Position numbers and translations under genes: made by a program. DNA of 41,073 nucleotides from a virus: positions 1-41,073 of IMG/VR virus record IMGVR_UViG_3300042516_001886, one strand, 5' to 3'. Shown piece by piece: positions 6,458 through 37,754 of the stretch (position 1 is its first letter; each line of letters opens with the position of its first letter). Under the pieces are notes generated by a model that did no database searches, was not told where the DNA came from, and saw only the letters and a list, made by a program, of their open reading frames with translations.

Positions 6458-7222
6458 ATGATCACACCTGAACAAATCCAATCAAATTGGGACATATTCA
6501 TTGGTAATATCAAAACCTATATCACGGGAGATAGGAAAGATAAGTTACTTGATTTCTATACTCAACATGAAGAACGCTTTGCTTTAATGCCTGCTTCTAA
6601 TAAGATTCAATATCATAATTGTTTTCCTGGCGGGTATGTAGATCATGTTAATCGTGTTGTTACTGCTGCTTTAAAGATAGACGCTGTATGGCGTGAGTTA
6701 GGTGTGTTTGATACTTACACTACAGAGGAACTAGTTTTTGCTGCTATTAATCATGATCTAGGTAAATTTGGAACAGTGGAACATGCGTCGTACATTGAAC
6801 AAACTGACCAATGGAGACGAGATAAACTGAATGAGACTTATATGTTCAATGATAAATTGGAGTATATGTCTGTTCCTGACCGAGGATTATGGTTACTAAA
6901 TGAAGCTGATATATCAGTAACAAAGAATGAGTTACTAGCTATTAAGTTACATGATGGATTATATGATGACGCTAACAAGCCTTACTTATTATCTTTCATG
7001 CCAGAAACTAAACCTCGTACTTCAATCATTTTTATTCTACATCAGGCGGACTTATTAGCCGCTCGAGTTGAATTTGAACATGAATGGTTACCAAAATTAT
7101 TAAATAACAATACTAAACCTAAACCTGTAACTTCATTTAAGGCACCTGCTGCTAAACAAAAAGCGCTAAGTAACTTAAGTAAATCAAACCCAGGTTTAGC
7201 TGACTTAATTAAAAACTTATGA
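6458..7222 (+). CDS. HD-domain phosphohydrolase
   Basis: HD-superfamily metal-dependent phosphohydrolase, 254 aa. Visible ligands are H53 and H63 in YHNCFPGGYVDHV, the HD pair at 99-100 (INHDLGKFG), H165-D166 (KLHDGLYD) and H195/D198 (ILHQADLLAARVE). The family hydrolyses nucleotides, nucleic-acid ends or signalling nucleotides. Nucleotide-pool or (p)ppGpp-type turnover in infected cells is the usual guess, not proven. The C-terminal 45 residues are a Lys/Pro-rich extension. It follows the glutaredoxin by 3 nt and overlaps the next gene by 4 nt. Confidence 0.8.
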   Translation: MITPEQIQSNWDIFIGNIKTYITGDRKDKLLDFYTQHEERFALMPASNKIQYHNCFPGGYVDHVNRVVTAALKIDAVWRELGVFDTYTTEELVFAAINHDLGKFGTVEHASYIEQTDQWRRDKLNETYMFNDKLEYMSVPDRGLWLLNEADISVTKNELLAIKLHDGLYDDANKPYLLSFMPETKPRTSIIFILHQADLLAARVEFEHEWLPKLLNNNTKPKPVTSFKAPAAKQKALSNLSKSNPGLADLIKNL

Positions 7223-7491
7223 TATTAGGAACTATATCTATTATTCTATGGGTAGCCACCATTGTAGGCTTCGTTGTTTATAACAATCTTAAAAAGTTAG
7301 AGCGTCAAGAAGATATTATACGCCAACAACAACAACAACTTCAAGACATATATGCTGTTATAGCAGAGTCAGATCGTTTAATTGTAGAAATTGATAAGCG
7401 AGGAACATTTTCATCCGATGATGAAATTGGTTTCTTCTTTCAAACTGTTAAAGGTATTCAACAAACACTAAACGAATTTAGACCAAGATAA
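7219..7491 (+). CDS. membrane-anchored coiled-coil protein, 90 aa
   Basis: One N-terminal membrane helix (residues about 3-22, ISIILWVATIVGFVVY) is followed by a Gln-rich coiled coil (KLERQEDIIRQQQQQLQDIY) and a soluble tail. The orientation signal (Lys after the helix) suggests the tail is cytoplasmic. The layout resembles an inner-membrane spanin or a membrane tether. Its place between the HD hydrolase and the late sigma gene does not favour a lysis role. ATG overlaps the previous stop (7219-7222). Confidence 0.65.
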   Translation: MILGTISIILWVATIVGFVVYNNLKKLERQEDIIRQQQQQLQDIYAVIAESDRLIVEIDKRGTFSSDDEIGFFFQTVKGIQQTLNEFRPR

Positions 7492-7494
7492 TAT

Positions 7495-8256
7495 ATGAGT
7501 GTATTAATTGATGAGAAGGAAGTCCAACTCACTAAGAAAGGGACTATACGTAAGCGCAAACCTAAGACTGCAAACGTTTACTTTACACAAGATACAGAAG
7601 ACGCTATTGTTGAATATGTTAAAACTACTGACATGGCTGTACGTAATAAAATTTTTAATGAACGTATTGACTATGCTTTTCATAAATTAACAGAAAATAT
7701 TATTCATACATTTAAGTTTTATTATACTGAAGTAGATACTATTCCTGAATTACAACATGAAGTAGTTTATTTCTTACTTGAAAAACTACACCTATACAAA
7801 CCAGAAAAAGGTAAAGCGTTCTCGTACTTTGGAACCATTGCTAAACGTTATCTTATTTTATATAATAACGCTAATTATAAGAAGCTTAAGAATAGAGCAA
7901 CAGTTGACGAGATAGACAACGATAAAACCATTATAACAGATATTGTTAACAATACCGACAACTTCCGTCTAGCCGACGAGGAACTCAATTTTATAGACGC
8001 TTATGTGGGATATATCGACAAACATTTATACTCGTTCTTCCCTAAAGAAAATGATGCTAAGATAGCTGACGCTATTATGGAGTTGTTCCGTAAACGTGAA
8101 AACATTGATATATTCAATAAGAAGGCGCTTTATATATATATTCGCGAAATAACTGACGCATCTACGCCACAAGTAACTAAAATCATCAAGAAGTTAAAAA
8201 CTCATTACAAGAATATATACAATGAGTACCATACTCATGGGTATGTTAGGTACTAA
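7495..8256 (+). CDS. 55: T4 gp55-like late-transcription sigma factor
   Basis: Residues about 30-125 look like sigma-70 region 2: helices AFHKLTENIIHTFKFYY and IPELQHEVVYFLLEKLHLY, then KPEKGKAFSYFGTIAKRYLI (102-121). The last part matches the region 2.4-type segment of T4 gp55 proteins, which recognises the late promoter box. Residues 224-245 (TPQVTKIIKKLKTHYKNIYN) may be a helix-turn-helix-like end. At 253 aa it is longer than T4 gp55 (185 aa). It would redirect host RNA polymerase to late genes, and the ATATTTATA motif before structural genes is the candidate target. Confidence 0.75.
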   Translation: MSVLIDEKEVQLTKKGTIRKRKPKTANVYFTQDTEDAIVEYVKTTDMAVRNKIFNERIDYAFHKLTENIIHTFKFYYTEVDTIPELQHEVVYFLLEKLHLYKPEKGKAFSYFGTIAKRYLILYNNANYKKLKNRATVDEIDNDKTIITDIVNNTDNFRLADEELNFIDAYVGYIDKHLYSFFPKENDAKIADAIMELFRKRENIDIFNKKALYIYIREITDASTPQVTKIIKKLKTHYKNIYNEYHTHGYVRY

Positions 8257-8276
8257 CCGAAAATTCTTATAGCTTT

Positions 8277-8285
8277 ATATTTATA
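8277..8285 (+). promoter_or_regulatory. candidate late promoter box ATATTTATA (1)
   Basis: ATATTTATA 15 nt before the ATG at 8301, in the 44-nt gap between the late sigma gene and the baseplate block. Exact copies stand at 13391, 16157, 22998, 29633, 32241 and 40387. There is also a partial two-part promoter here (CTAACCGAAA at 8253, TAGCTTTAT at 8270, 7-nt spacing), so both classes may be used. Confidence 0.55.
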
Positions 8286-8300
8286 TCAAATATGTAATAT

Positions 8301-8657
8301 ATGGATTTTGATAAAGTTATATTCGGTAAAAAATCGTTCTCTTCATTACTTGAGGACATTTATTCCAATTCCAAGAACAAAGAAAAGCAACTATCCGCAA
8401 TGATAGCGCAACTTAAAGAGTTCATTAATGAACCCGGTGACGCCGTTATGATTGTTCCCCTATTAAAAGAATACCTAGAAATATCTGTTAAGAATGATGA
8501 CGCGTTAATTAAAATGGCGGGTATTGTTCAACGCGCTATGACTAATAATAATCCTAATGAAGAAGGTTTATTGTCGGATAGAGATAAAGAACTATTATTT
8601 GAAGAAATAAATAAAGTTCAACTTGAAGCTAACCAACCTGTAAAACAACTTAATTAA
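8301..8657 (+). CDS. hypothetical protein at head of baseplate operon, 118 aa
   Basis: Helical, slightly acidic protein (FSSLLEDIYSNSKNKEKQLS, IVPLLKEYLEISVKNDDALI). T4 gp33, the late co-activator, is of similar size, but I see no gp33-specific feature, so I leave it unnamed. Its stop overlaps the start of the hub gene by one base (TAATG), implying coupled translation and perhaps a role in baseplate assembly or late control. Confidence 0.65.
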   Translation: MDFDKVIFGKKSFSSLLEDIYSNSKNKEKQLSAMIAQLKEFINEPGDAVMIVPLLKEYLEISVKNDDALIKMAGIVQRAMTNNNPNEEGLLSDRDKELLFEEINKVQLEANQPVKQLN

Positions 8658-10336
8658 TGTCTCTTTTTGATATTCTAGATAAACCTACTGGAGTTGGTAA
8701 TATAACTAGTCCTCTCTTAATTGGACGTGTTAAGGATATCATTATGGATGACAAACATCCTGAGTTTAAGAAGTATGGTGGTTGGGCTAGTTTAGGTTTT
8801 ATTAAATTCTCTCCTGTTTATCAAACAGCTGATCCTAATAAGACTGTATCTTTACCATTCGCTAAACCCATTTCTTCTAACTATAGTCAATTTCCTTTAT
8901 TAGAGGAAATAGTATTAATCATTTCTGGTCCATCAACTAAATTGACTAGTGATCCAAATGCTAAAGATTATTTTTACTTAAATGTTTTTAACTTTTGGGG
9001 TAGTACTCATCATAATGGATTCCCTGATCTTAGAAATGCCTCTAATCTACCAGACGCCATTAGAAAAGATTACTTAACTGTAGCTGAAGGATCTATTAGA
9101 AAAATTAGAGATAATAGTTCTGATTTGAGATTAGGGAGTACTTTTAAAGAAAGAGCTAATATTAGAAACATTGTATCATATGAGGGAGATGTTATAATGC
9201 AAGGCAGATTTGGACAGTCAATTAGATTTGGTAGTACATCAAAAAATAAAAGTATACCTAACTTTTGGAGTAATAATACTGAAAGTAAAGAAGGTGAACC
9301 TATCACTATAATCAGAAATGGTCAAAACAAAGCATTAGTAGGTGAAGGATGGGTTCCTATCCTTGAAGATATAAATTCAGACGGGGCATCAATTTATTTA
9401 TGTAGTGGTCAAGAAATTAATATACAATTATCTTCTACTAACTTAAATTCATTTGGGGCTCAATTACAAACACCTATACAGTCTACATTACAATTAATAG
9501 ATTCACCTATTGGAGCTGAAATTCCTCTTAATGAATCTGACAGTAGTTCTCTTAGCGCTGCCCAATTATCAGATAAAATATTCCAAACTTCTACATCTAC
9601 ATCAGGTAGTGCTACTCCTTCTAACCCAGCATCTAGTGTTAATCCTAGTATAAGCGCTTTACCAACAGGATCAGTGACAGTGTCTCCAACTGGTTTAGAA
9701 GCTGGTTCTAAAACTAATCCAATTAGTGAAGAAGATTTATTACCTAGTGAAATTGAAGAATTCCAATCTGATTTTCAGTATGCTGAATTAGATAAAGAAG
9801 AACAAAAAGCAATTGATGCTCCTGATTATAGTTCTAGTAGTGATACTGAAAATAATCTAGCTAAAGATGGTGTTTATTACTATGATGTACCTAGAGAAAA
9901 ACAAATTAACGCTACAGCTTGCTTTATAGCTAGTTGTACTATGATATTGAAATATTTAAAAATTAGTGTAACACAAAATTATATTTTACAGAATTATAAT
10001 AAGGATGGTTTATTAGATTCATCTCGTTTATTCACTAAAGAAGCTAAAAGAAGTATAAACACTAAACCAATATCTGGTGGAAGTACTGGGTATAAGCAAA
10101 TAGTTGACTTTATTAAATCAACAGGAAAACCATTCATACTTTGTAAAAAGAGTATAGGTAGTAAAGGACAAAATGGAACACACTTTATTGTTGTAAAAGG
10201 ATTAAATGCTAAAGGTGAAGTATTATTAAATGATCCTGCTAATAGTAAAGTAGCATCTGTAGATACTATTTTAAAAGTAAGTGATCTATTAGATGGTACA
10301 GGAACAGCTAAAGGAAGTATAAGGTTTTATAGTTAA
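8657..10336 (+). CDS. 5: gp5-like baseplate hub with C39-like peptidase domain
   Basis: Residues about 15-115 fit the OB-fold of T4-type gp5 hubs (LLIGRVKDIIMDDKHPEFKK). Residues 170-225 carry the hub signature (EGDVIMQGRFGQSIRFGS, then ITIIRNGQ). After a Ser/Thr-rich linker (about 295-400), residues 405-559 resemble a C39-type papain-like peptidase: Q416 and C422 in QINATACFIASC, H509 in GTHFIVVKG, D526 in LLNDPAN. T4 gp5 carries a lysozyme domain instead. Inferred job: central tail spike component that cuts a peptide bond, perhaps in peptidoglycan, during DNA delivery, or processes itself. Confidence 0.8.
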   Translation: MSLFDILDKPTGVGNITSPLLIGRVKDIIMDDKHPEFKKYGGWASLGFIKFSPVYQTADPNKTVSLPFAKPISSNYSQFPLLEEIVLIISGPSTKLTSDPNAKDYFYLNVFNFWGSTHHNGFPDLRNASNLPDAIRKDYLTVAEGSIRKIRDNSSDLRLGSTFKERANIRNIVSYEGDVIMQGRFGQSIRFGSTSKNKSIPNFWSNNTESKEGEPITIIRNGQNKALVGEGWVPILEDINSDGASIYLCSGQEINIQLSSTNLNSFGAQLQTPIQSTLQLIDSPIGAEIPLNESDSSSLSAAQLSDKIFQTSTSTSGSATPSNPASSVNPSISALPTGSVTVSPTGLEAGSKTNPISEEDLLPSEIEEFQSDFQYAELDKEEQKAIDAPDYSSSSDTENNLAKDGVYYYDVPREKQINATACFIASCTMILKYLKISVTQNYILQNYNKDGLLDSSRLFTKEAKRSINTKPISGGSTGYKQIVDFIKSTGKPFILCKKSIGSKGQNGTHFIVVKGLNAKGEVLLNDPANSKVASVDTILKVSDLLDGTGTAKGSIRFYS

Positions 10337-10346
10337 AAATTAAACA

Positions 10347-11273
10347 ATGTCAGGTAAGAAAAAAGCAGAAAAAACCGCAGCATCCGCCACCACCGCCGCT
10401 AATCAGGCGAGTAGTCAAGCGAATTCTCAATCTAACACACAGACTAATACAGCTGTGGCTGAAGCGGAAGCTGCCGCCGCTCAAACCGGTGGTGATGTTG
10501 GCTCACCTAATGTTGACCCTAACGCTACTAGAGGTCCAGGAGGAAGAATGCTTCAATTTGAAGATTTTAGTTCTGACTATATTCCTGCGTTTCCATATTT
10601 AAGTGATCAATTAATATTAAATTCTGGTAGAGTTTTACTTAATTCTAAGTATGATTCAACAATGTTATTTGGTAAAAGATCTATAGCACTGTCATCAGAT
10701 GGTACTTTAAATTTTGATAGTCGTTTGAAATATATTGTTAATAGCCCTAGGATTGAATTAGGATTAGGTGATAATGCGTCTGTTGCTTTAGGTGAACCAT
10801 TAATAGAATATCTAGATAAATTATCAACTGGTCTTAGTGATTTAGCTAAAGAATTAGAAAAAGTATTTAACACAGGTAATAATAGTCCTTTTCAAGGTGT
10901 GAACATACAAGCGGGACGTTTAGTAAAAAAATTAGAAGAATTGAACGCAATAAAAACAGATCTAAAATCTAATGTTGTGTTTGTTGGTAAAAATATTGTC
11001 ACTACCGCGGCCCCATCAGTAACTGAAGAAGTACAAGAACCATCCCAATCATCACCTGGCAATTCAGAAGGAGGTTACACTAGTAAAGGTGATCAACAAA
11101 ATGAAGCAGACCAACAAGATAGAAAAGATAAATCTGATAGATTTGAAAATGCAGAAGGTAAAGGTATAGGAGCTAATGATGAACCACCACCACGTAATTA
11201 CTCTCCAGGATCAAGAGATACAGTAGACAGAAATACAGGTAATCCACAACCATCACCAACAGAAGAATTATAA
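10347..11273 (+). CDS. baseplate/spike-associated structural protein, 308 aa
   Basis: Residues 1-60 are a low-complexity Ala/Gln/Ser/Thr segment. Residues 85-150 show repeating short strands (LILNSGRVLLNSKYDSTMLF, IALSSDGTLNFDS, IVNSPRIELGLGDNASVALG), a pattern seen in beta-structured spike or hub proteins next to gp5 in T4-like phages. Helices follow (EYLDKLSTGLSDLAKELEKV), then a long polar, disordered tail (240-308). Its position 10 nt after the hub gene suggests it binds or extends the hub, possibly replacing the beta-helix of T4 gp5. Assignment by context and pattern. Confidence 0.6.
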   Translation: MSGKKKAEKTAASATTAANQASSQANSQSNTQTNTAVAEAEAAAAQTGGDVGSPNVDPNATRGPGGRMLQFEDFSSDYIPAFPYLSDQLILNSGRVLLNSKYDSTMLFGKRSIALSSDGTLNFDSRLKYIVNSPRIELGLGDNASVALGEPLIEYLDKLSTGLSDLAKELEKVFNTGNNSPFQGVNIQAGRLVKKLEELNAIKTDLKSNVVFVGKNIVTTAAPSVTEEVQEPSQSSPGNSEGGYTSKGDQQNEADQQDRKDKSDRFENAEGKGIGANDEPPPRNYSPGSRDTVDRNTGNPQPSPTEEL

Positions 11274-11292
11274 AAATATTATTTATTAAAGT

Positions 11293-13389
11293 ATGGCATT
11301 CGCTAAATTATCACAAACTATCTTTAAGGGCATTGTTGATGCTGAGGCTAACCTTAACAAAACTATTAATAAAGTATATAAGAATGTTAATGAGATTAAA
11401 GATATTGATTTATGTCATATATTAGAATATATTGCTAATCAAGTAGGAACAGCTGCTATTAGTAATAATAAAACTATTAATGATGTAAAAACATTAGCTC
11501 GTACACTTGATAATTTTATAAATACATTTGAGAAAACATATCCATTAACTACTCCATTAATTCAAGCTAAACAAATACAAGATGTAGTTAATAGTTTAAA
11601 TTCAATTCCTACAATTGAATCTAATGTTATTCCTCAAGGACCTAAGATTAATAATCTATTTAAAGCCGCTGCTGATAAATTAACTCCATTCACTGATTCT
11701 AAGAATTTAACTCCTAGAAGTATCAATACTGTTATTAATTTAGTTAAAAGTATTAGAGGTACTTTACAAGCAGTAGCTAGTATAGCTAGTCCTGCTGATC
11801 TATTAGGCTTGTTAAATATTAAATTAGATTTAAGTAAGTTACAAAAATTTGTTGACCCCGCTAAATTAATTCCTTTTTTAACATTATTATTAAATTTACT
11901 ACGTGGTATATCTAATGTTATACAAGTTATAATTAACTTTTTACAGTCAATTAAAAATATAGTTAACTTATTAAAAACTATAGTTAAGGTTATTAATGGA
12001 GTAATTTTAGCTATATACGCTGTTACTGCTGTTTTACCAACAATGTTTTTAACAGCTGGTATAGTACTGGGTTTTGAAAAGATACTTAAAACTATTCAAA
12101 AAACTATTTTAGATCCACTCACAGCAGTATTAACTGAAATTGATAATGGTCTAGCTTTAGTTATAGGTATTTTAACTACTGTACAAAACTTTTTAACTAA
12201 AATAATATCTATTTTACTTGACATAATAAATCAACTTCAAAATTGTAAGGATTTAAGTGTGTCTACTTTATTATATGATTTTAGAAATACTATTGGATCT
12301 TTATTAGGTAATCTAAGAGATATAGACTCAGCTATATTTGACTTTACAGCAGGCAATACAGACCCAGGTATTAATGATGCTTTAAATCAAAGATATAATG
12401 ATTTAGGAGGAAACACAAGTGCTTCAGATGCTTTAATAAAAAATATTTTACTTAACGATAATCAATTTAATAATCAAAATCCTGTACTTCAAGTTCTATT
12501 AGACCAAAACCCAGGAAAATCACTAAATGAAGTATTATTAGGTCAATTTGGTTTTAATAATAGTAATGCCCTATTAGATCCATCTTCTAATAATTTAAAT
12601 GGAGTTAAAACTAATACTGATGGATTAACAGGTAATGGTATAGGAGGAGCTTTAACACCTACAACTATTCCTAGTAGTAATGGTGGTAATAATGGTTTAT
12701 CTTTTGATAGTAGTGGATATAATCTTAATGATTTGAATCGTTTAAATCAATTAGGTTTGGGTAATTTAAATAAAGATAGTACATTTGGACAAACCGGTGA
12801 TCGTAATGTTAATAATTTAAATAATTTAAAACGTCAAGACTTACTTGATATTATTAATCGTTTACAAAGAGATAAAAGAAATCAAACAGAATTAAATAGT
12901 TTAACTAGATATTATAAAGGTTTAATATTAAAAATAATTGTTGAGGAGATAGTTGATAATGGTATCACTTTAAAAAGACGATACGGAATTGCTTTAAATA
13001 ATAAAAGTATATTAGTCACATCAACTGATCCAACATACGCTACTAATATTGAAGTAATATTCAACGAACTTATTTTTAGAATTGATATTGGTAAATTAGG
13101 TGAACAAAATGATAGTAGTACAAATGATCAAATAAATAATTTAGGCATAGGTAATGTGTCTCAAGCTAATAACTATACTATACAAAATAGTACCATGGCT
13201 GATATTAAAAACCAAATAACACAAATACCAGCGCTAAAGAATATATTAACAACAACAACTAAAAAATTAGCTATTAGCATAACACAACGTGACAGAATTG
13301 TTACCACATTACTTAGTATTGGATACACTAAAGCAGAAATAACAGATTTATTAAGAAATAAAGGATATAGCGTCGAAAATTTAGTATAA
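11293..13389 (+). CDS. large helical tail/baseplate structural protein, 698 aa
   Basis: Residues about 1-340 are long, strongly hydrophobic helices (FLTLLLNLLRGISNVIQVII, IVNLLKTIVKVINGVILAIY). Two or more could be membrane-crossing (around 190-265), as in tape-measure proteins. The middle (380-530) is Asn/Gly/Leu-rich and flexible. Residues 560-620 look beta-rich (TLKRRYGIALNNKSILVTST), and the end is a small helical module (ITQRDRIVTTLLSIGYTKAE). It lies between the spike gene and gp25. A membrane-inserting or tape-measure-like role is possible, but the family is not recognised. Confidence 0.55.
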   Translation: MAFAKLSQTIFKGIVDAEANLNKTINKVYKNVNEIKDIDLCHILEYIANQVGTAAISNNKTINDVKTLARTLDNFINTFEKTYPLTTPLIQAKQIQDVVNSLNSIPTIESNVIPQGPKINNLFKAAADKLTPFTDSKNLTPRSINTVINLVKSIRGTLQAVASIASPADLLGLLNIKLDLSKLQKFVDPAKLIPFLTLLLNLLRGISNVIQVIINFLQSIKNIVNLLKTIVKVINGVILAIYAVTAVLPTMFLTAGIVLGFEKILKTIQKTILDPLTAVLTEIDNGLALVIGILTTVQNFLTKIISILLDIINQLQNCKDLSVSTLLYDFRNTIGSLLGNLRDIDSAIFDFTAGNTDPGINDALNQRYNDLGGNTSASDALIKNILLNDNQFNNQNPVLQVLLDQNPGKSLNEVLLGQFGFNNSNALLDPSSNNLNGVKTNTDGLTGNGIGGALTPTTIPSSNGGNNGLSFDSSGYNLNDLNRLNQLGLGNLNKDSTFGQTGDRNVNNLNNLKRQDLLDIINRLQRDKRNQTELNSLTRYYKGLILKIIVEEIVDNGITLKRRYGIALNNKSILVTSTDPTYATNIEVIFNELIFRIDIGKLGEQNDSSTNDQINNLGIGNVSQANNYTIQNSTMADIKNQITQIPALKNILTTTTKKLAISITQRDRIVTTLLSIGYTKAEITDLLRNKGYSVENLV

Positions 13390-13390
13390 A

Positions 13391-13399
13391 ATATTTATA
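13391..13399 (+). promoter_or_regulatory. candidate late promoter box ATATTTATA (2)
   Basis: Exact motif in the 13-nt gap before the ATG at 13403, only 3 nt from it. If the transcript starts about 7 nt downstream, it would lack this start codon and serve gp25 and gp6 instead. It may also be a chance AT-rich match. Confidence 0.35.
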
Positions 13400-13402
13400 T
13401 AT

Positions 13403-13867
13403 ATGAAAACAGATGAATTTTTAAAACAATTACGTAAAATTATACGCGAAGAAGTAGAAATGGCGTTAGATAGTAGATTGGAAACATTGAATGAAGTTAA
13501 ACAACCTACACAAACTAAACGTATACCTTCAACTCTTTCTAGTATTTTACCACCAAAATCACAACCTAAAAGAAGTCTTTCTGTACCTGATGTGAAAAAT
13601 CCGTTATTAGCTAGTATTCTTAATGAAACTGCTATGACTATGACCGGAGATGATTATAAAACAGCAATTAACGCTGATGCTAGTATGGCGCCTAATTTTA
13701 TGGGTATGATGAGAAATAATATGCCTCAAGCTACACCTGTAGTTGATTCTGTAGAAAGTATGTTAGCTTCTACAACACCAACCTCTGATATTAACGCGGT
13801 ACAAATAAACGCTGTACCTGATTTCTCAGCGATAATGGGTAAATTTAAAGAAAACGGTAAAATATAA
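13403..13867 (+). CDS. hypothetical virion-associated protein with leader-type N-terminus, 154 aa
   Basis: Residues 1-31 (MKTDEFLKQLRKIIREEVEM, then a second helix ending LETLNE) form a basic-acidic amphipathic helix of the LRKIIREE kind. From memory, this kind is common at the start of T4-like phage head or accessory proteins, and it contains IxE/LxE steps like gp21-type cleavage sites. The rest is Pro/Ser/Thr/Met-rich and probably disordered. It overlaps gp25 by one base (TAATG). Structural or scaffold-like role inferred only. Confidence 0.5.
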   Translation: MKTDEFLKQLRKIIREEVEMALDSRLETLNEVKQPTQTKRIPSTLSSILPPKSQPKRSLSVPDVKNPLLASILNETAMTMTGDDYKTAINADASMAPNFMGMMRNNMPQATPVVDSVESMLASTTPTSDINAVQINAVPDFSAIMGKFKENGKI

Positions 13868-14289
13868 TGGCACGTATAATTAAAAATATTAATCCATTAG
13901 ATCTAAAACCTAGTACAGGTATTGGATTATCTTTACCCTTTAATGGTCCAATTGGATTTAACCTTAATTATACTACTAAGGATCAATTCCGTAATAACAT
14001 ACTTAATTTTTTATCTACTGCTCAAAGAGAAAGACCGTTCCAACCTAATTTTGGAGCTGATCTTAGACAATTCTTATTTGAAGCAAATGATGATCTAACT
14101 ATAGGTGAGATAAAATCTTCATTACAGGATAGTTTAAATACTTATTTTCCTAACATAGTAATAGATAACATTGATATATTGCAATCTATAGATGCTTATC
14201 TTATGAATGTAATTATAAAATATACAGTTCCGAACCTTAACTTAACCGATACTTTAACACTAGAATTTAATAATGGCAACAGTCAATAA
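13867..14289 (+). CDS. 25: baseplate wedge protein gp25-like
   Basis: Matches the gp25/lysozyme-like baseplate family in length (140 aa, T4 132 aa) and pattern: a Gly/Pro-rich start, DQFRNNILNFLSTAQRERPF (42-61), then QPNFGADLRQFLFEAND (62-78) and the closing strands IDAYLMNVIIKYTVPN and DTLTLEF. In T4-like tails gp25 forms the wedge core with gp6 and gp53, at the junction with the sheath. Its end overlaps the gp6 start by 17 nt, conserving the 25-6 gene order. Confidence 0.85.
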   Translation: MARIIKNINPLDLKPSTGIGLSLPFNGPIGFNLNYTTKDQFRNNILNFLSTAQRERPFQPNFGADLRQFLFEANDDLTIGEIKSSLQDSLNTYFPNIVIDNIDILQSIDAYLMNVIIKYTVPNLNLTDTLTLEFNNGNSQ

Positions 14290-16141
14290 CAATAAAGCAG
14301 TAACGTATTTAAATAAAGATTTTAATACATTTAGACAAGCTCTAATAGACTTTGCTAAGACCTATTATCCTAGTACTTACAATGACTTCTCAGCAGCCTC
14401 ACCAGGTACAATGCTTATTGAAATGGCATCGTATGTGGGTGATGTTTTATCTTATTATGTTGATAGTCAAATACAAGAGAATTTTTTACAATACGCTAAA
14501 CAAAGAAATAATTTATATACTTTAGCTTATATGTTTGGTTACAAACCAAAAGTAACTAATGCTGCTGTTACTAATGTAGACATATACCAAATTGTACCTG
14601 CTAAAACAACAGGTTCAGTTGTCACTCCTGACTTTGATTATTCTTTAATTATACAAGAAGGAAGTCAACTTCAATCTAATGCTAATTCGGATGTTGTATT
14701 CTATATTAATGATAAAGTAGATTTTTCATTGTCTGGTTCATACAGTCCTACATCTGCTTCAATTTACAGTGTAGACAATAATAATGTTCCTACATTTTAT
14801 TTACTTAAAAAATCTGTTGAAGCATTATCAGGTACACCTAAATCAACTACTTTTACTTTTGGTGCTCCTGCTAGTTTCCCAACTGTAATAATTGAAGATA
14901 CTAATATCATTGAAATTACAAGTGTATCAGATAGTGATGGAAATGTATGGTATGAAGTACCTTATTTAGCCCAATCCACAATTTATAAAGAAGTTCAAAA
15001 CACAGGTGCTAATGATCCTAACTTTTCTCAATATAATAACAATGTTAATTATTTGTTAAGATTAATCAAAACAAGTAAACGTTTTGTCACACGATTTAAC
15101 TCATCTAATCAATTAGAATTACAATTTGGAGCTGGTTTATCTACAAATGATGATAAAGAAATTGTACCTGATCAAACTAATGTTGGTATGGGAATTTATG
15201 GTGGTGTTAATAAATTAACTACTGCTTTTGATCCTTCTAACTTCTTAGTAAGTGATGCTTATGGTATCGCTCCTTCTAATACTACATTAACTGTAAATTA
15301 TTTAGTAGGTGGTGGTGCTATTTCAAATACATCTGCTAACACATTAACTGTACAAAGAAATATAACAACAGCATTTGTTGGTACTAATTTAAATTCTACA
15401 TTATCTAGTCAAGTAATAGCTTCTCTTGCCTTTACTAACCCATCAGCCGCTACAGGTGGAGGAGATGGAGATGATGTGAATGAATTAAGATTTAATACTA
15501 TTTCTCAATTTCCAACACAATTACGCGCTGTAACTAAAGATGACTATTTAATTAGAGCTTTAAGTTTACCTTCAAAGTATGGTGTTATATCTAAAGCTTA
15601 TGTAACTCAAGACTTACAATCAGGTAATAAAATGGTTGATCCATTATCATTATCTTTATATTTGTTAAGTTATAACATTAATAATCAATTAACACCAGCA
15701 TCTCCTGCTCTTAAAGAAAATTTAAGAACATACTTATCACAATATAGAATGTTGAGTGATGAAGTTTTAATTAAAGATGCATTCATTATTAATATCGGTA
15801 TTGATTTTGATATTGTTGTGAGACCTAACTATGTTAATAGAACAGTATTAGCTAATTGTATAGACACATTAAAATCATACTTTGACATTACTAAATGGCA
15901 AGTTAATCAACCAATTATTTTAGGTGAGGTGTATAGTTTATTAGACTCAATAGATGGTGTACAATTAGTACAAACTGTACGTATTAACAATTTAGTTGGT
16001 GAAGGTGCTGGTTACTCTCAATATTCTTATGATATAAACGGAGCTACATTGAAAAATGTTGTATATCCATCACTAGACCCATCAATTTTTGAAATAAAAT
16101 ACCCAGATACCGACATACAAGGTAGAGTAGTTACATACTAA
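14273..16141 (+). CDS. 6: baseplate wedge protein gp6-like
   Basis: T4 gp6/baseplate J-like protein, 622 aa (T4 660 aa). The N-terminal part carries the family pattern FRQALIDFAKTYYPSTYNDF, then SPGTMLIEMASYVGDVLSYY and a FLQYAKQRNNLYTLAYMFGY segment (about 18-92). The middle is beta-rich, and the C-terminal third has LRAVTKDDYLIRALSLPSKY and a final NINNQLTPASPALKENLRTY helix, as in J-family proteins. gp6 dimers link neighbouring wedges in the inner ring. It overlaps gp25 by 17 nt and ends before a candidate late promoter. Confidence 0.85.
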   Translation: MATVNNNKAVTYLNKDFNTFRQALIDFAKTYYPSTYNDFSAASPGTMLIEMASYVGDVLSYYVDSQIQENFLQYAKQRNNLYTLAYMFGYKPKVTNAAVTNVDIYQIVPAKTTGSVVTPDFDYSLIIQEGSQLQSNANSDVVFYINDKVDFSLSGSYSPTSASIYSVDNNNVPTFYLLKKSVEALSGTPKSTTFTFGAPASFPTVIIEDTNIIEITSVSDSDGNVWYEVPYLAQSTIYKEVQNTGANDPNFSQYNNNVNYLLRLIKTSKRFVTRFNSSNQLELQFGAGLSTNDDKEIVPDQTNVGMGIYGGVNKLTTAFDPSNFLVSDAYGIAPSNTTLTVNYLVGGGAISNTSANTLTVQRNITTAFVGTNLNSTLSSQVIASLAFTNPSAATGGGDGDDVNELRFNTISQFPTQLRAVTKDDYLIRALSLPSKYGVISKAYVTQDLQSGNKMVDPLSLSLYLLSYNINNQLTPASPALKENLRTYLSQYRMLSDEVLIKDAFIINIGIDFDIVVRPNYVNRTVLANCIDTLKSYFDITKWQVNQPIILGEVYSLLDSIDGVQLVQTVRINNLVGEGAGYSQYSYDINGATLKNVVYPSLDPSIFEIKYPDTDIQGRVVTY

Positions 16142-17641: not shown

Positions 17642-20600
17642 ATGGCAGTTACAATTAAAAATATCAACGACGCTTACGTCTATCAACTCTACAGTCCACA
17701 AGATGAGAATCTGATAAAATCAGTATATATATCTCGTAATTTTGGCCAACCTGAAGATTATGTTGAATATAATATTTTTGACTCTAAAGGTGTTTTGCTT
17801 ACTACAACATATGATGTAGATACTTTTAGAACAGTTGATCCTGATCCTGAAACTAACTTATACACTACAATTAAATTTGATCCTGAGTTTGATGTTAAGA
17901 GTGAAGGTTTTAATACAGGTAAAGTTCAAATCACTTATAATGTATTTAGAAAATTATTTAAGAGTGGTTTACAAAACTTGTTCTGGATCAAAGATATTTC
18001 TACTGATAGAACAGAATTAAAAGTTTATAGAAACGATTTATCAAATTTAGAATTACAACAATTATTCTTTGAATTTAATACATTATTTGTTTCTAAAGCA
18101 TATTACCAAGATTTTCTTTTAAACTTTGGTGATGGTATTAATCTTATTGGTATTAATGTAGCGTATGTTGAAGATCCTATTCAATCTTACTTATTAATTA
18201 AGTTATACGAACCATTACCATCTCGATTTGGTAAGAAAGATACTTTTTGGGTTGTTGATAGGATCTCTGATCCTATTACTTTTGAGGTAACTAGTACTAT
18301 TGAAGAAGCACCTATTGGTACTACATTTTTACCTCTAAAAGGACCTAACTTTAATATTGACATTAACGAGAAAGCAAGTCAAACTACTCCTTATTTCAAT
18401 TATACAGAACTATTTTCGTCTCCTGTTTCATCATCTATACAACAACTTAAAAGTTACTTAGATGTTAAAGGAGCAAATATTAATATTGATTTTTCTAATT
18501 ATACTAATTTTGTTCATTTTTCATCCGCTCAAAAGCGTTTAGATAATTTTGTAACAAAGTTAACTTCAATCGAGTCATACCAAAATGACTTAAATACTTT
18601 ATCTAATCTTACCTCATCAGCTAATCATATATTCACTACTGCTAGTGTTGCTACAACACAAGCATTGTTAGATAATATTATAACTAAGTTTGATGAATAT
18701 GAATATTATTTATATTTTGAGTCTAGCTCATATGCTTGGCCTAAAATAAACTCAACTGCTCCTTACTTATTATACTCAGTAAGTAGTTCTCAAGGGTCTA
18801 CTTTCTATGTTAGCCAATCAGTTAGTGCTTCAACTCATGATTTAACTAACGAAAATTATTTATTTAATCTATTACCTCAATACGTCAAAGACAACTCAGA
18901 TAACTCAAACATATGGACATTTGTTTCTATGATGGGTCAACAATTTGATGAGATATGGTTATACATTAAAGCCATAACTGATAAGTACAATACTGACAAT
19001 AGAACTGATTATGGTTTATCTCAAGATCTAATAGCAGATGCTTTACAATCATTTGGTATTAAATTATATACTAACACTAGCACTAATAGTGATTTATATA
19101 GTTCATATCTTGGTTTAACACCATCAGGATCGTTGTTACCTACTACAGGCTCAGAATTAATTACAAATTATGTAACAGGTTCTAACAAAACTACACCAAC
19201 TTACGATCTTACTACTGAACTTTATAAGAGATTATACCATAATTTACCATATTTACTTAAATCTAAGGGGACTGAAAAAGGCATTCGTGCGTTAATTAAT
19301 CTATATGGCATACCAGACTCAATACTTTCTGTAAACGAATATGGCGGAACTGACAAAAACTCAGTTGAGCCCAACGTTTATAAAGAAAAAACAGCATATA
19401 CTTTCTATACTTCAGGTTCTTACAACGTAAAAATGTCATGGGCACCATTACTTGCTAATGATTGGATAGGAAATTATGTTAATACTGGATATATATTACC
19501 TGGATATGTTGATGATTTAATTACACCTGATACTATTGAATTTAGATTCAAAACTGATGGTGTACCTAATTCTACTCATTATAGTCAATCTGTATTCCAA
19601 GTTGGTACAGGTAGTGCTATGAAGTTTGGAACACAATTAACTTATGATACTACTAATGTAAATTCTAATTATGGTAATTTAAAATTATTCTTATTTAGTT
19701 CATCTTCATATGTTACTAGTAGCGCTATTAATCTTCCATTCTTTGATAAGGGATGGTGGAGTGTAATGATTAAACGTGAAACTGGATCTTTATCTTTATC
19801 ACACAATGATGTAAGTAATAGATATTGGGTTTATGTTAAGAATTCTTTATATGATGGATATGATGGTGTTAAATTAGGATTCCAAGGATCTTCTAGTGTT
19901 TATGTTAACGGTGCTACTTCTGCTTCATATAATGAATCTTGGAATAGCTTTGTCACTAATGCTGAATACGCTGTTGAAGGATATGTTGATGAAGGGTATG
20001 TTGAACAAATTGATTCATATAGTGCTTACTTAGGTGGTTCTAATAATGGAAATACATTAAGTTCAGGTAGTACTATATTTAAAGGATACTTTCAAGAATT
20101 TAGATATTGGGCAGAACCATTAAATGAGTCTACTTTTGATATTCATGTATTAAATCCATCATCATATGTTGGTAATACTTTTAGTTCATCATATTCAACT
20201 TTAGGATTTAGATTACCATTAAACAGTATATATAGTAATACAGTTGATGTTAGTCACTCAGTTCATCCTTCATACGCTGGAAATGGTTTACCTTCATCTG
20301 AATCATTCTATGATGGAGATGCTAGTTGGAGTTTCGCAGATACTATTCCTAATAGTTTCAAGAAAACAGATTATTATGAAATAACTAGTACACCTAACGC
20401 TGCTAATAGAGATGTAAGCGATAAGATTAGAATTCAATCTAATACACTTATTTCAGGAAGTACTTTATCTTTATTTACTAGTACAGTTAAACCAACATTT
20501 GAAAAAAATCCTAATTCTCATGTTGTAGAAATTGCTTTCTCTCCATCTAATGAAGTTGATAAAGATATTATTAACCAATTTGGAAACTTAAATCTAGACA

Positions 20601-22981
20601 ATTATGTAGGTGATCCTAGAGATAATGCTAAATCATCATACCCAGAGTTAACAAGTTTAAATGATTTTTACTTACAAAGATTTGTTAATAGATACAATGT
20701 ACAAGATTTTGTTCGTTTAATTAAATATTTTGACAACTCATTATTTAAATTAATTAAGGATTTTGTTCCTGGTAGAGCTAATGTTTCTACAGGTATTGTA
20801 ATTAAACCTACTATACTTGAAAGAAGTAAAATAGAACGTAATGAACCGGGAGTTATATCACAATATAATTCACCTTCAGGATCTATAGAGATGGAAACCA
20901 TTACTGGTTCAAATGCTATTGGTAAATACTATAATACATCATACACAGCATCTATTACTACTCCATCAGGATCTAAAACATATCTTGTTAGAAATGATAA
21001 TAGAGAAATGTTCACTGGTGATTTTGGTGGTACTATATTAACTGTATATACTCAATCAGCAGGAAATATTATATTTGAAAGAAATACATTACCATCAGGA
21101 TCAAGTACAGATATAGGTAACAACTACCAATTATTACCATTTCAACCATTACTTAATAATGTTACTGGTAGTAGAACTACTAATAAATTTACAGTGGTTG
21201 ATTATAATGGTATAAGTACTAGACCTACTGATTTTGGTTATTTGTTAAGTTGGTCATTTTCTGGGTCAACACCTACATATGATAACAATATTTTTAGAGC
21301 AGGTGTTCAAGATAGTAACTACACAACAGCTAGAATTATTAATCCAAGATATTTAGGTTCTAAAACTACAAGTGCTAAATACAATGTTTATACTAAAGGA
21401 GACACATCATATGGTCAAACAGCCGCTATTGATCATTACCCAGTGACATTTGCTTATTTCAATGAAGTATATTTAACAGGATCCGCACTACCTGATAGAT
21501 CTAATGTGTACATTAAATACTTAATTAACATATTATCAGAAGTAGTTGAATTAAACCGTCAAAACAAAAATTTAAATGATATTCAAAATATCTTTAAGTC
21601 TGGAGAAAATGTTGTTATATCATTAACTGATAACCAAAATCCAACTAATCAGAAATTTTTGGATGGTATTAAACCAACATTTGCTGGTGGTTTTAAGTAT
21701 GTACCTATATTGTATAATGCTTCTGCTCCTGGTTTCCCAACTTTAACATATACTTTAACTTCATCAGTATCATACATTCCAACATCAAGTGTTGAAATTG
21801 GTATATACTCCGCCGCTAGTGCATCTGGTCAACTTTTCATTAGTGGTGGTGCTAACCCATTAACAAGTAGTAACTTAATATTAGGTGATGATTTAGGTAT
21901 TGTAGATTACAGATACCATTATATTTCTTCATCAGCGGCTAGATTAAATGATTTATTAACAGTATTCATCAATTTTGATATTGATGTTTTCATGACAGGA
22001 TCATTTGTAGCTACAAGTACAAAACCTGTTACTGAATGGTTAGGTAATCCTCAAAAATATAATGACTTAAGTGCATCTTATGTATTTAATACTTTTATGA
22101 GAATACCTGCTACTGTGACAGAATATACAGGCTCACTTCTAGATCTTGTTGTAGGAGCTATTTATCCAGAACCATTTAATAGAGGAGAATTAACAATATC
22201 TGGCTCATGGCGATACTCAGACTCAGCTGGAGATTATGACTACACAGCTAGTTATTATAGTGGAAGCACATCAACTCCTCCTTCAGCATCTGCACTTTAT
22301 GATGTGACAAGTAGTGTTTATTCTAACCCACCAGTTTCTGCTTCATTATTTGTACCTATTGAAACTGCTTTAAATACAGTATTAACCACTGAAGTATATG
22401 ATACACCGACAAGTAAAGGATTCTTCTTACGTGATTTAAATAATAAATCAATCATGTCTGGTTCAATATCCATGTCTTATTGGTATGGTGGATTCACTGA
22501 AGCCAATTTATTCACAGCATCAATGGTATCAGAATCTGTTTCATATTCTGTAGTAGGAACATATGAAAGTATTGAGCAAGAATTTAGGATGCAACCGGGA
22601 GATATGATTAGATTTTATGATGTAACTACTAACACATTCCCAAGAGTATTTGAACGTGAAGTTAAATCCATATCTGTTCCAAGAACAGATGAGGTTATCC
22701 GACTAGGAAGACGTATATTGATTGAGTTAAACGATAATATACCGTCAAATGCTTGTGAAGAAGCTGTTGTTCCTGGTACAACATTGGAAACTGCAAAATT
22801 AATTAGTAGATTTATTGTGCTAAGAAAAGACCCGGATGAAACTAATATAGTAATTGACCATGCTAAACAGCCAGGATTAACATCCGCCGGTATTATTATA
22901 CCTGAATTCATACCACAAGAATTAAGAGATCAAGCGGGTGATATCGTTAAAGCACTAAAAGCACAAAACTTAATAACGTAA
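17642..22981 (+). CDS. giant tail/baseplate protein (gp7-position), 1779 aa
   Basis: Largest gene in the window. Residues 1-250 are beta-rich structural domains. About 405-450 (NLLPQYVKDNSDNSNIWTFV) and 533-556 (YHNLPYLLKSKGTEKGIRAL, then INLYGIP) resemble P2 gpI/T4 gp7-type baseplate segments. Residues about 625-835 look like a LamG/concanavalin-type carbohydrate-binding sandwich (TIEFRFKTDG, FDKGWWSVMIKRE, YFQEFRYWAEPLN). About 1040-1065 is FVPGRANVSTGIVIKPTILE. The remainder is Ser/Thr-rich repeats of strands. Likely role: wedge protein that also presents a glycan-binding surface. Confidence 0.6.
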   Translation: MAVTIKNINDAYVYQLYSPQDENLIKSVYISRNFGQPEDYVEYNIFDSKGVLLTTTYDVDTFRTVDPDPETNLYTTIKFDPEFDVKSEGFNTGKVQITYNVFRKLFKSGLQNLFWIKDISTDRTELKVYRNDLSNLELQQLFFEFNTLFVSKAYYQDFLLNFGDGINLIGINVAYVEDPIQSYLLIKLYEPLPSRFGKKDTFWVVDRISDPITFEVTSTIEEAPIGTTFLPLKGPNFNIDINEKASQTTPYFNYTELFSSPVSSSIQQLKSYLDVKGANINIDFSNYTNFVHFSSAQKRLDNFVTKLTSIESYQNDLNTLSNLTSSANHIFTTASVATTQALLDNIITKFDEYEYYLYFESSSYAWPKINSTAPYLLYSVSSSQGSTFYVSQSVSASTHDLTNENYLFNLLPQYVKDNSDNSNIWTFVSMMGQQFDEIWLYIKAITDKYNTDNRTDYGLSQDLIADALQSFGIKLYTNTSTNSDLYSSYLGLTPSGSLLPTTGSELITNYVTGSNKTTPTYDLTTELYKRLYHNLPYLLKSKGTEKGIRALINLYGIPDSILSVNEYGGTDKNSVEPNVYKEKTAYTFYTSGSYNVKMSWAPLLANDWIGNYVNTGYILPGYVDDLITPDTIEFRFKTDGVPNSTHYSQSVFQVGTGSAMKFGTQLTYDTTNVNSNYGNLKLFLFSSSSYVTSSAINLPFFDKGWWSVMIKRETGSLSLSHNDVSNRYWVYVKNSLYDGYDGVKLGFQGSSSVYVNGATSASYNESWNSFVTNAEYAVEGYVDEGYVEQIDSYSAYLGGSNNGNTLSSGSTIFKGYFQEFRYWAEPLNESTFDIHVLNPSSYVGNTFSSSYSTLGFRLPLNSIYSNTVDVSHSVHPSYAGNGLPSSESFYDGDASWSFADTIPNSFKKTDYYEITSTPNAANRDVSDKIRIQSNTLISGSTLSLFTSTVKPTFEKNPNSHVVEIAFSPSNEVDKDIINQFGNLNLDNYVGDPRDNAKSSYPELTSLNDFYLQRFVNRYNVQDFVRLIKYFDNSLFKLIKDFVPGRANVSTGIVIKPTILERSKIERNEPGVISQYNSPSGSIEMETITGSNAIGKYYNTSYTASITTPSGSKTYLVRNDNREMFTGDFGGTILTVYTQSAGNIIFERNTLPSGSSTDIGNNYQLLPFQPLLNNVTGSRTTNKFTVVDYNGISTRPTDFGYLLSWSFSGSTPTYDNNIFRAGVQDSNYTTARIINPRYLGSKTTSAKYNVYTKGDTSYGQTAAIDHYPVTFAYFNEVYLTGSALPDRSNVYIKYLINILSEVVELNRQNKNLNDIQNIFKSGENVVISLTDNQNPTNQKFLDGIKPTFAGGFKYVPILYNASAPGFPTLTYTLTSSVSYIPTSSVEIGIYSAASASGQLFISGGANPLTSSNLILGDDLGIVDYRYHYISSSAARLNDLLTVFINFDIDVFMTGSFVATSTKPVTEWLGNPQKYNDLSASYVFNTFMRIPATVTEYTGSLLDLVVGAIYPEPFNRGELTISGSWRYSDSAGDYDYTASYYSGSTSTPPSASALYDVTSSVYSNPPVSASLFVPIETALNTVLTTEVYDTPTSKGFFLRDLNNKSIMSGSISMSYWYGGFTEANLFTASMVSESVSYSVVGTYESIEQEFRMQPGDMIRFYDVTTNTFPRVFEREVKSISVPRTDEVIRLGRRILIELNDNIPSNACEEAVVPGTTLETAKLISRFIVLRKDPDETNIVIDHAKQPGLTSAGIIIPEFIPQELRDQAGDIVKALKAQNLIT

Positions 22982-26491: not shown

Positions 26492-26953
26492 ATGAATAAA
26501 TGGTTACATTATTTGGATGATGGTACACTCGCTGAGTGGCCTGAAGTATTAGAACCACAATATTATGGTTTTATCTATATCATCCAAAACAAAACAAATA
26601 GTAAGTTTTACATAGGTAAAAAAGCATTCTTCCATAATAAGAAGAAGAAACTCACCAAAAAAGAATTAGCCGAACAGTCAGGACCAGGACGTAGGTCAAC
26701 TACTAAAACTGAACAGGTAGATAGTGGATGGAAAGCATATTGGGGTAGTTCTAAAGAATTACTAGCAGATATGAAATCGTTAGGTGAGGATCAATTTGAA
26801 CGTATTATATTACAATTCTGTGATACTAAAAAACAACAGACATATTATGAGATATATCATCAAATTATATATGGAGTTCTACATACCGAGAATAGCTATA
26901 ATGATAACATTTTAGGTAAGTTTTTCCGTAAAGATTTGGCCTCGCAGGAATAA
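26492..26953 (+). CDS. GIY-YIG-type endonuclease-like protein
   Basis: Residues 25-45 (YGFIYIIQNKTNSKFYIGKK) give the two GIY-YIG strands, here YII and YIG. A 30-residue basic insert follows, then WKAYWGSS (80-87) and the helix QQTYYEIYHQIIYGV with Glu120 as the likely metal ligand. It resembles Seg/phage GIY-YIG proteins without a DNA-binding extension (153 aa). It may be a free-standing homing or recombination nuclease. It has no leader and starts a block of DNA-metabolism genes. Confidence 0.7.
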   Translation: MNKWLHYLDDGTLAEWPEVLEPQYYGFIYIIQNKTNSKFYIGKKAFFHNKKKKLTKKELAEQSGPGRRSTTKTEQVDSGWKAYWGSSKELLADMKSLGEDQFERIILQFCDTKKQQTYYEIYHQIIYGVLHTENSYNDNILGKFFRKDLASQE

Positions 26954-37154: not shown

Positions 37155-37754
37155 ATGAACTTAGATAAACTAAAAGGACACATACCAGACTCAGTAATTA
37201 CTCAGATTCCTGGTGTTATGGATAAATTTGGAATTAATACCCCCTTACGTTTAGCTCATTTCTTGGCTCAATGTGGTCATGAATCTGGTGGATTTAGATT
37301 AACAAAAGAAAATCTAAACTACTCAGCTAAAGGTCTAATGGGTATATTTAAAAAATACTTCCCAACGGAAGCTAAAGCTAAAGAATATGAACGTAAGCCT
37401 GAGAAAATTGCTAATTTGGTCTATGGTGGTAGAATGGGTAACGGCCCTGAACCTACTGGTGATGGAGCTAAGTATTGTGGCCGTGGTTTTATTCAGTTAA
37501 CTGGAAAAGACAACTACACAGCATTTGGTAAGTCAATTAATGAAGATATAGCTGCTAATCCAACACAAGTTGCTGAAAAATATCCATTATTATCTGCCGC
37601 TTGGTTCTTTAATAAGAACAAATTGCATATTATGGCTGACGGTGGTGCTACAGATGCCGTAGTAACGTCAATTACTAAACGTGTAAACGGCGGTACTATT
37701 GGGTTGCCAGATAGAATTAAACACTTTAAAGAATATTATAATTTACTAGCATAA
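37155..37754 (+). CDS. GH19-type endolysin
   Basis: Glycoside hydrolase family 19 fold (chitinase/endolysin), 199 aa. The general acid is E43 in [17 protein letters not shown]. The substrate groove motif is [20 protein letters not shown] (106-125), and [18 protein letters not shown] and [18 protein letters not shown] complete the domain. Phage GH19 enzymes cut peptidoglycan glycan strands to lyse the cell. No signal peptide is seen, so it would need the holin, with 33876 as candidate. It overlaps the next leader gene by one base (TAATG). Confidence 0.85.

Follow-up and report, generated by a model that had tools for sequence, protein, structure and literature searches.

The locus considered here raises the question of why a gene for what appears to be the central spike of a contractile phage tail should also encode a domain resembling a cysteine peptidase, and on what such an enzyme would act. 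The window, meaning the whole stretch of 41,073 nucleotides that was analysed (IMG/VR record IMGVR_UViG_3300042516_001886, positions 1 to 41,073), had been described as encoding a baseplate hub in which a C39-like cysteine peptidase stands in place of the lysozyme of phage T4 gp5. The open reading frame was found to be real and as described, with a product of 559 amino acids. The earlier description covered only half of the spike, however; the gene appears to supply the first half of the spike, and the tip, which the original prediction missed, lies in the next gene. The features concerned are the following.

8301–8657, plus strand: small gene directly upstream of the hub gene; in 155 of the 160 relatives listed it accompanies the hub at its locus
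8657–10336, plus strand: hub gene of 559 aa with OB domain, linker and C39-like peptidase, putatively the first half of the spike
8702–9454, plus strand: OB-type N-terminal spike domain, residues ~16–266, from sequence homology and fold match
9455–9850, plus strand: Ser/Thr/Pro-rich linker predicted to be disordered, residues ~267–398, from pLDDT <50 and sequence
9851–10333, plus strand: C39-like cysteine peptidase domain, residues ~399–559, from Pfam PF13529/PF03412 and alignment to ComA and PCAT1
9902–9904, plus strand: codon of Q416 (checked)
9920–9922, plus strand: codon of C422 (checked)
10181–10183, plus strand: codon of H509 (checked)
10232–10234, plus strand: codon of D526 (checked)
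10347–11273, plus strand: gp5C-like tip protein of 308 aa, putatively the other half of the split spike, from BLASTP and alignment with relatives
10572–11006, plus strand: conserved tip region, residues ~76–220 of the tip protein, from alignment (structural model of low confidence)
13867–14289, plus strand: gp25-like baseplate wedge protein (phrog_261, 1.2e-22; Pfam GPW_gp25, 1.6e-9)
14273–16141, plus strand: baseplate wedge subunit, gp6-like (phrog_219, 9.6e-18)
37155–37754, plus strand: separate endolysin (phrog_181, 2.7e-67)

The proposed gp5-like character of the N-terminal half was upheld at a moderate level. Using VIA-align, residues 16–257 of the hub were matched to the baseplate spike of P1 (Z 7.2) and gpV of P2 (Z 6.6), as well as to the spikes of PVC, AFP and other injection systems and to T6SS VgrG, with overall Z values of 6–7.2; T4 gp5 itself was absent among these fold matches. 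By sequence search, homologues of the OB part were identified in Flavobacterium phage immuto, in Microcystis phage Mel-JY01 and in LR756508 (an unannotated 484-kb phage), with 27–32% identity and E-values of 7e-13 to 5e-17. The sequence profile of this part matched no solved structure, PHROGs contained no family for the hub, no lysozyme model matched the hub protein and no sequence similarity was detected between the hub and T4 gp5. Confidence in the AlphaFold model is mostly good over the OB part but poor over the linker and the C39 part, and Foldseek gave E-values >0.001 for the same OB-spike and C39 fold matches. The fold matches are moderate evidence, backing up the profile evidence and unable to stand alone, and we regard the N-terminal half as a moderately supported OB domain of the contractile-tail spike type; genes for gp25-like and gp6-like baseplate wedge proteins are among its neighbours. 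The Ser/Thr-rich linker (~267–398) is of low complexity and, with pLDDT <50, is predicted to be disordered.

The C-terminal part was assigned through Pfam profiles. Peptidase_C39_2 (PF13529) matched residues 410–528 over profile positions 2–143 of 143 (E 2.2e-11; 45 bits against a cut-off of 24), a match repeated in a search on the window DNA (E 6.5e-14; up to 47.9 bits against 24). Further matches to the hub were made by Peptidase_C39 (PF03412; E 1.2e-6, 28.9 bits against a cut-off of 22) and by Peptidase_C70 (Pfam; E 1.4e-5). The residues Q416, C422, H509 and D526 occur in the papain/C39 order that had been noted, and in a weak alignment they fall on the Q, C, H and D of the papain-like protease 9l5u. 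None of the four varies among five aligned full-length hubs of relatives from IMG/VR (L001–L004 and L006; 86–99% identical); a sixth, L005, is cut by its contig end. A non-peptidase fold or loss of the Cys/His pair in close homologues would have told against the assignment; domain searches instead placed the C-terminal part in a peptidase family, and every close homologue retains both residues. Values of dN/dS were 0.07–0.15 for the C39 domain compared with 0.16–0.38 for the linker, and lower for C39 in each informative pair, which points to purifying selection on the domain. Residues 418–559 matched the C39 domains of ComA (Z 7.0) and PCAT1 (Z 6.5), as well as interpain A (Z 6.7), in a model of low confidence; its C39 part is poor (pLDDT mostly <60), and fold matches of Z 6–7 are within the range of chance arrangements. 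Judged on its sequence, the C-terminal part of the hub is a C39-like cysteine peptidase domain of the papain type with its catalytic residues intact. Searched against annotated phages, the domain gave no significant match, and in IMG/VR matches were found only in the same six contigs, so that the fusion appears to represent one small clade in the samples examined.

The gene at 10347–11273 was recognised as the tip through its similarity to hubs made in one piece. By BLASTP, its product matched residues 245–324 of the immuto hub (1e-11) and residues 268–403 of the Mel-JY01 hub (2e-9). In both of these (immuto gp116 and Mel-JY01 WWT39504), which share a homologous OB domain and tip part and a similar gene neighbourhood with the window, the tip region continues after the OB part in the same chain; they differ in being encoded by one gene with no enzyme between the two parts. 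When one-piece and split relatives were aligned, most split tip proteins were seen to start where one-piece hubs carry on. The tip homologue is the next gene, and the hub's own primary product has no C-terminal beta-helix part. The model of the tip protein is a low-confidence monomer with no clear strands, too poor for comparing folds, and the homology shown is confined to the C-terminal region of hubs made in one piece; profile matches of the tip part were to helical proteins only, through its helical tail, and were taken as chance. It also possesses a 75-aa N-terminal extension (10347–10571) rich in Ala, Gln and Asn, and a C-terminal extension too, both absent in most relatives. GG motifs in the N-terminal extension are conserved within the C39 clade.

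T4 gp5 consists of OB, lysozyme and beta-helix domains in one chain, which is cleaved between lysozyme and beta-helix, at Ser351/Ala352, to give gp5* and gp5C (PMC3004832). As the OB domain and the enzyme are encoded by one gene here and the tip by another, the break falls at a place equivalent to the gp5 cut, with the C39 domain at the position of the T4 lysozyme. The two systems would have in common an OB domain, a murein-type enzyme held on linkers between OB and tip, and a separate tip chain. They differ in that the enzyme is a lysozyme in T4 and a C39-like cysteine peptidase here, and in that the chain is broken by proteolysis in T4 and by a gene boundary here. The phrase "in place of lysozyme" is accurate as to position; as to descent it goes beyond the data, and no lysozyme was recognised in the corresponding slot among the relatives listed.

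The contents of this slot were surveyed in relatives. A set of 160 non-redundant hubs was assembled from three IMG/VR scans with OB alignments, one prokaryote-genome scan, the first protein scan and phage records; because these scans started from split hubs and took in no more than 80 loci each, the counts are not frequencies in nature. One-piece hubs made up 92 of the 160, and in all 92 the gap between OB and tip is at most 18 residues, which leaves no room for an enzyme. Six hubs were cut by contig ends, and the remaining 62 are all split or lack the tip in the same chain. In 25 of these 62 complete split hubs an enzyme-type domain is fused to the C-terminus of the OB protein: C39 (n = 5, the window being counted together with L001, whose OB domain is identical), amidase (n = 9), VanY (n = 3), M15 (n = 6), and the domains of L098 and L108. 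In a further 10 of the 62, a separate gene stands between the OB and tip genes, encoding an M15 peptidase in nine (L113, L115, L131, L135, L145, L176, L179, L183, L184) and a protein matching a locally built amidase profile in one. The free-standing M15 enzymes and those fused to other hubs are homologues, reflecting either gene fusion or fission.

Pfam was run on representatives, giving Amidase_2 (L023, L025, L058, L126; E 2e-13 to 8e-9), VanY (L069, L096, L097; E 1e-11 to 7e-9) and Peptidase_M15_3 (L118, L128, L175; E 4e-9 to 1e-11); for the remaining members, we assigned the domain with profiles derived from these representatives, and the assignments of L198 (amidase) and L150 (M15) have no or sub-threshold Pfam support. 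The slots of L098 (6e-13) and L108 (6e-14) matched PHROGs endolysin families; CHAP and YkuD, suggested by eye for L098 and L108 respectively, found no Pfam support and were dropped. Nineteen of the listed split hubs have short ends with nothing recognisable, and no recognisable domain was seen in L155 either. Slot domains without a recognised family occur in L031/L067, L121/L191, L188/L203/L233 and L155, and the slot is accordingly not proved to hold enzymes only; such domains are candidates for new tail enzymes or adhesins. One group of them is Cys-rich (CxxCxF...C...W).

Within the hubs listed, slot enzymes are present only where the hub is split into two genes, and each recognised occupant is of a murein-hydrolase type. 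In a quick tree of the OB domain, which has several long branches, the fused or split state requires two changes and the slot content 19. The C39 hubs form one branch (support 100), which sits among VanY, endolysin-type and enzyme-free split hubs. This pattern indicates that the slot domain has been exchanged among relatives. Profile matches, fold, conservation and synteny all speak for a C39-like peptidase borne by a spike protein of the gp5 kind, and the search for the same fusion elsewhere, proposed at the outset, led to the six contigs of the one clade.

The window was also compared at the DNA level with the related contig L001. Over 6822–14187 the window is 100% identical to it up to ~9750, and from ~9800 identity is 91–100% per 100-base bin. 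The change occurs within the linker, immediately ahead of the C39 domain, and marks either a recombination point or an assembly chimera. A swap of the C39 module as the sole difference between the two was considered and dropped, as the divergence begins in the linker and runs on through 14187.

Taking the intact C39 domain, the split of the hub, its equivalence in position to gp5, the exchange in the slot and the separate endolysin together, all of them readings of sequence, it is quite probable that the hub carries a virion-borne peptidoglycan peptidase for entry, held on a split gp5-like spike in an exchangeable slot. The hub gene would encode the upper part of the central spike (T4 gp5*-like), presumably trimeric, with its OB domain seated in the baseplate and the flexible linker tethering the peptidase, while the next gene would supply a gp5C-like needle tip. 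During infection, the sheath would push the spike through the outer membrane and the separate tip would detach or shift aside. The tethered peptidase domains, if catalytically active, would then hydrolyse peptide bonds in the stems or cross-links of peptidoglycan, and the resulting local hole would allow passage of the tube. As PF13529 members have varied or unknown substrates and C39 proper cuts double-glycine leaders, the family alone is no proof of a murein substrate. Local peptidoglycan cleavage at entry is nevertheless the most likely role, given that all recognised slot occupants are of murein-hydrolase type and that a separate endolysin is present. A reading of the hub itself as the endolysin was dropped in view of the gene at 37155–37754. 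That endolysin further resembles families with the annotation phage chitinase.

Three targets had been put forward originally: peptide stems of peptidoglycan, a surface protein and the hub itself. The stem peptides are favoured by the slot contents of relatives, whereas self-processing, though possible, is less favoured because the proteolytic cut of T4 is already a gene boundary here. Cleavage of a protein at the host surface or in its envelope (of the S-layer, the outer membrane or the periplasm) is also possible and would agree with the presence of protein-cleaving papain-like enzymes, such as interpain A, among the structural neighbours. We consider it unlikely, as the slot relatives are murein-type enzymes and the published C39-like domains that we found in phages belong to cell-wall lysins, namely the N5 domain of mycobacteriophage Lysin A (PMC3314691) and PeiR, the lysin of a methanogen virus (PMC6189367). 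Like the domain described here these are C39-like and papain-type, but they are free lysins, and here the domain is fused to a tail spike.

Slightly less likely still is a maturation protease that cleaves tail proteins during assembly, for instance the tip-protein extension after GG (~G48 or G65). It would stand in for the cleavage step of T4 gp5, in the manner of transporter C39 domains, which cut leaders after Gly-Gly (PMC10318531). The tip extension of the C39 clade is predicted, in a low-confidence model, to form a helix (3–45) followed by GG; this GG is kept in L002 and L003, and most other split tip proteins begin directly at the conserved part. Known double-glycine substrates have hydrophobic leader positions, however, and the residues preceding the GG here are Ala/Gln-rich. 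Furthermore, the tip proteins of L109, L188 and L233 are extended N-terminally without any C39, the same slot holds amidases and M15 enzymes in relatives, which would not process proteins, and there is no GG in the hub's own linker. A combination, in which the C39 domain both arms the spike and frees the tip protein by a Gly-Gly cut in its N-terminal extension, seems improbable; if true, a double-glycine-type peptidase would have been recruited to arm a phage spike in a dual role. Least probable is a catalytically idle binding or structural module, a reading favoured by the slot domains of some relatives that have no recognised enzymatic function and opposed by the four intact, invariant catalytic positions and the low dN/dS.

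The reading as a spike-borne peptidoglycan peptidase has partial parallels elsewhere. Hub gp15 of cyanophage A-1(L) has a peptidase domain, and activity on host cells is lower in catalytic mutants (PMC10966104). Both are contractile-tail baseplate proteins carrying a peptidase domain, which in A-1(L) was measured to act on host cells; there, however, the peptidase shares a barrel hub protein with lysozyme and endoglucanase domains, the spike being a protein of its own, whereas in the window it is the OB spike protein that bears the enzyme. The baseplate lysozyme gp078 of Klebsiella phage RaK2, with its unusual domain order (PMC3622015), likewise shows that enzyme placement on spikes varies, but it has the lysozyme C-terminal, after the beta-helix, in one chain. 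A pelagimyophage study noted that gp5 clusters diverge and proposed that they are adapted to the wall of the host (PMC7029224). Tail-tip enzymes, tail peptidases, C39-like lysins and variation of gp5 between phages are already known; the slot and the split design appear to be new, no paper on a C39 peptidase on a spike or on a split, enzyme-swapping hub family having been found in the open-access literature searched.

These findings indicate that the puncturing spike of a phage can carry its enzyme as a module open to exchange. One hub family has in the same place at least four unlike murein-enzyme types recognised by Pfam (C39, amidase, VanY and M15) besides other endolysin-family domains, fused or as a free-standing neighbour gene. 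Such a family is a source of lysins carried by virions and offers a natural experiment on the match between entry enzymes and the cell walls of hosts.

A Bacteroidota host is hinted at by relatives in Flavobacterium phages and Bacteroidota genome bins; the relative Mel-JY01 is recorded from Microcystis. Soon after the baseplate genes, 17642–22981 encodes a protein of 1779 aa that matched nothing in Pfam or PHROGs and may be a large component of the baseplate or of a fibre. Adjoining the replication genes, at 26492–26953, is a gene resembling SegE-type GIY-YIG homing endonucleases (Pfam, 8.6e-25).
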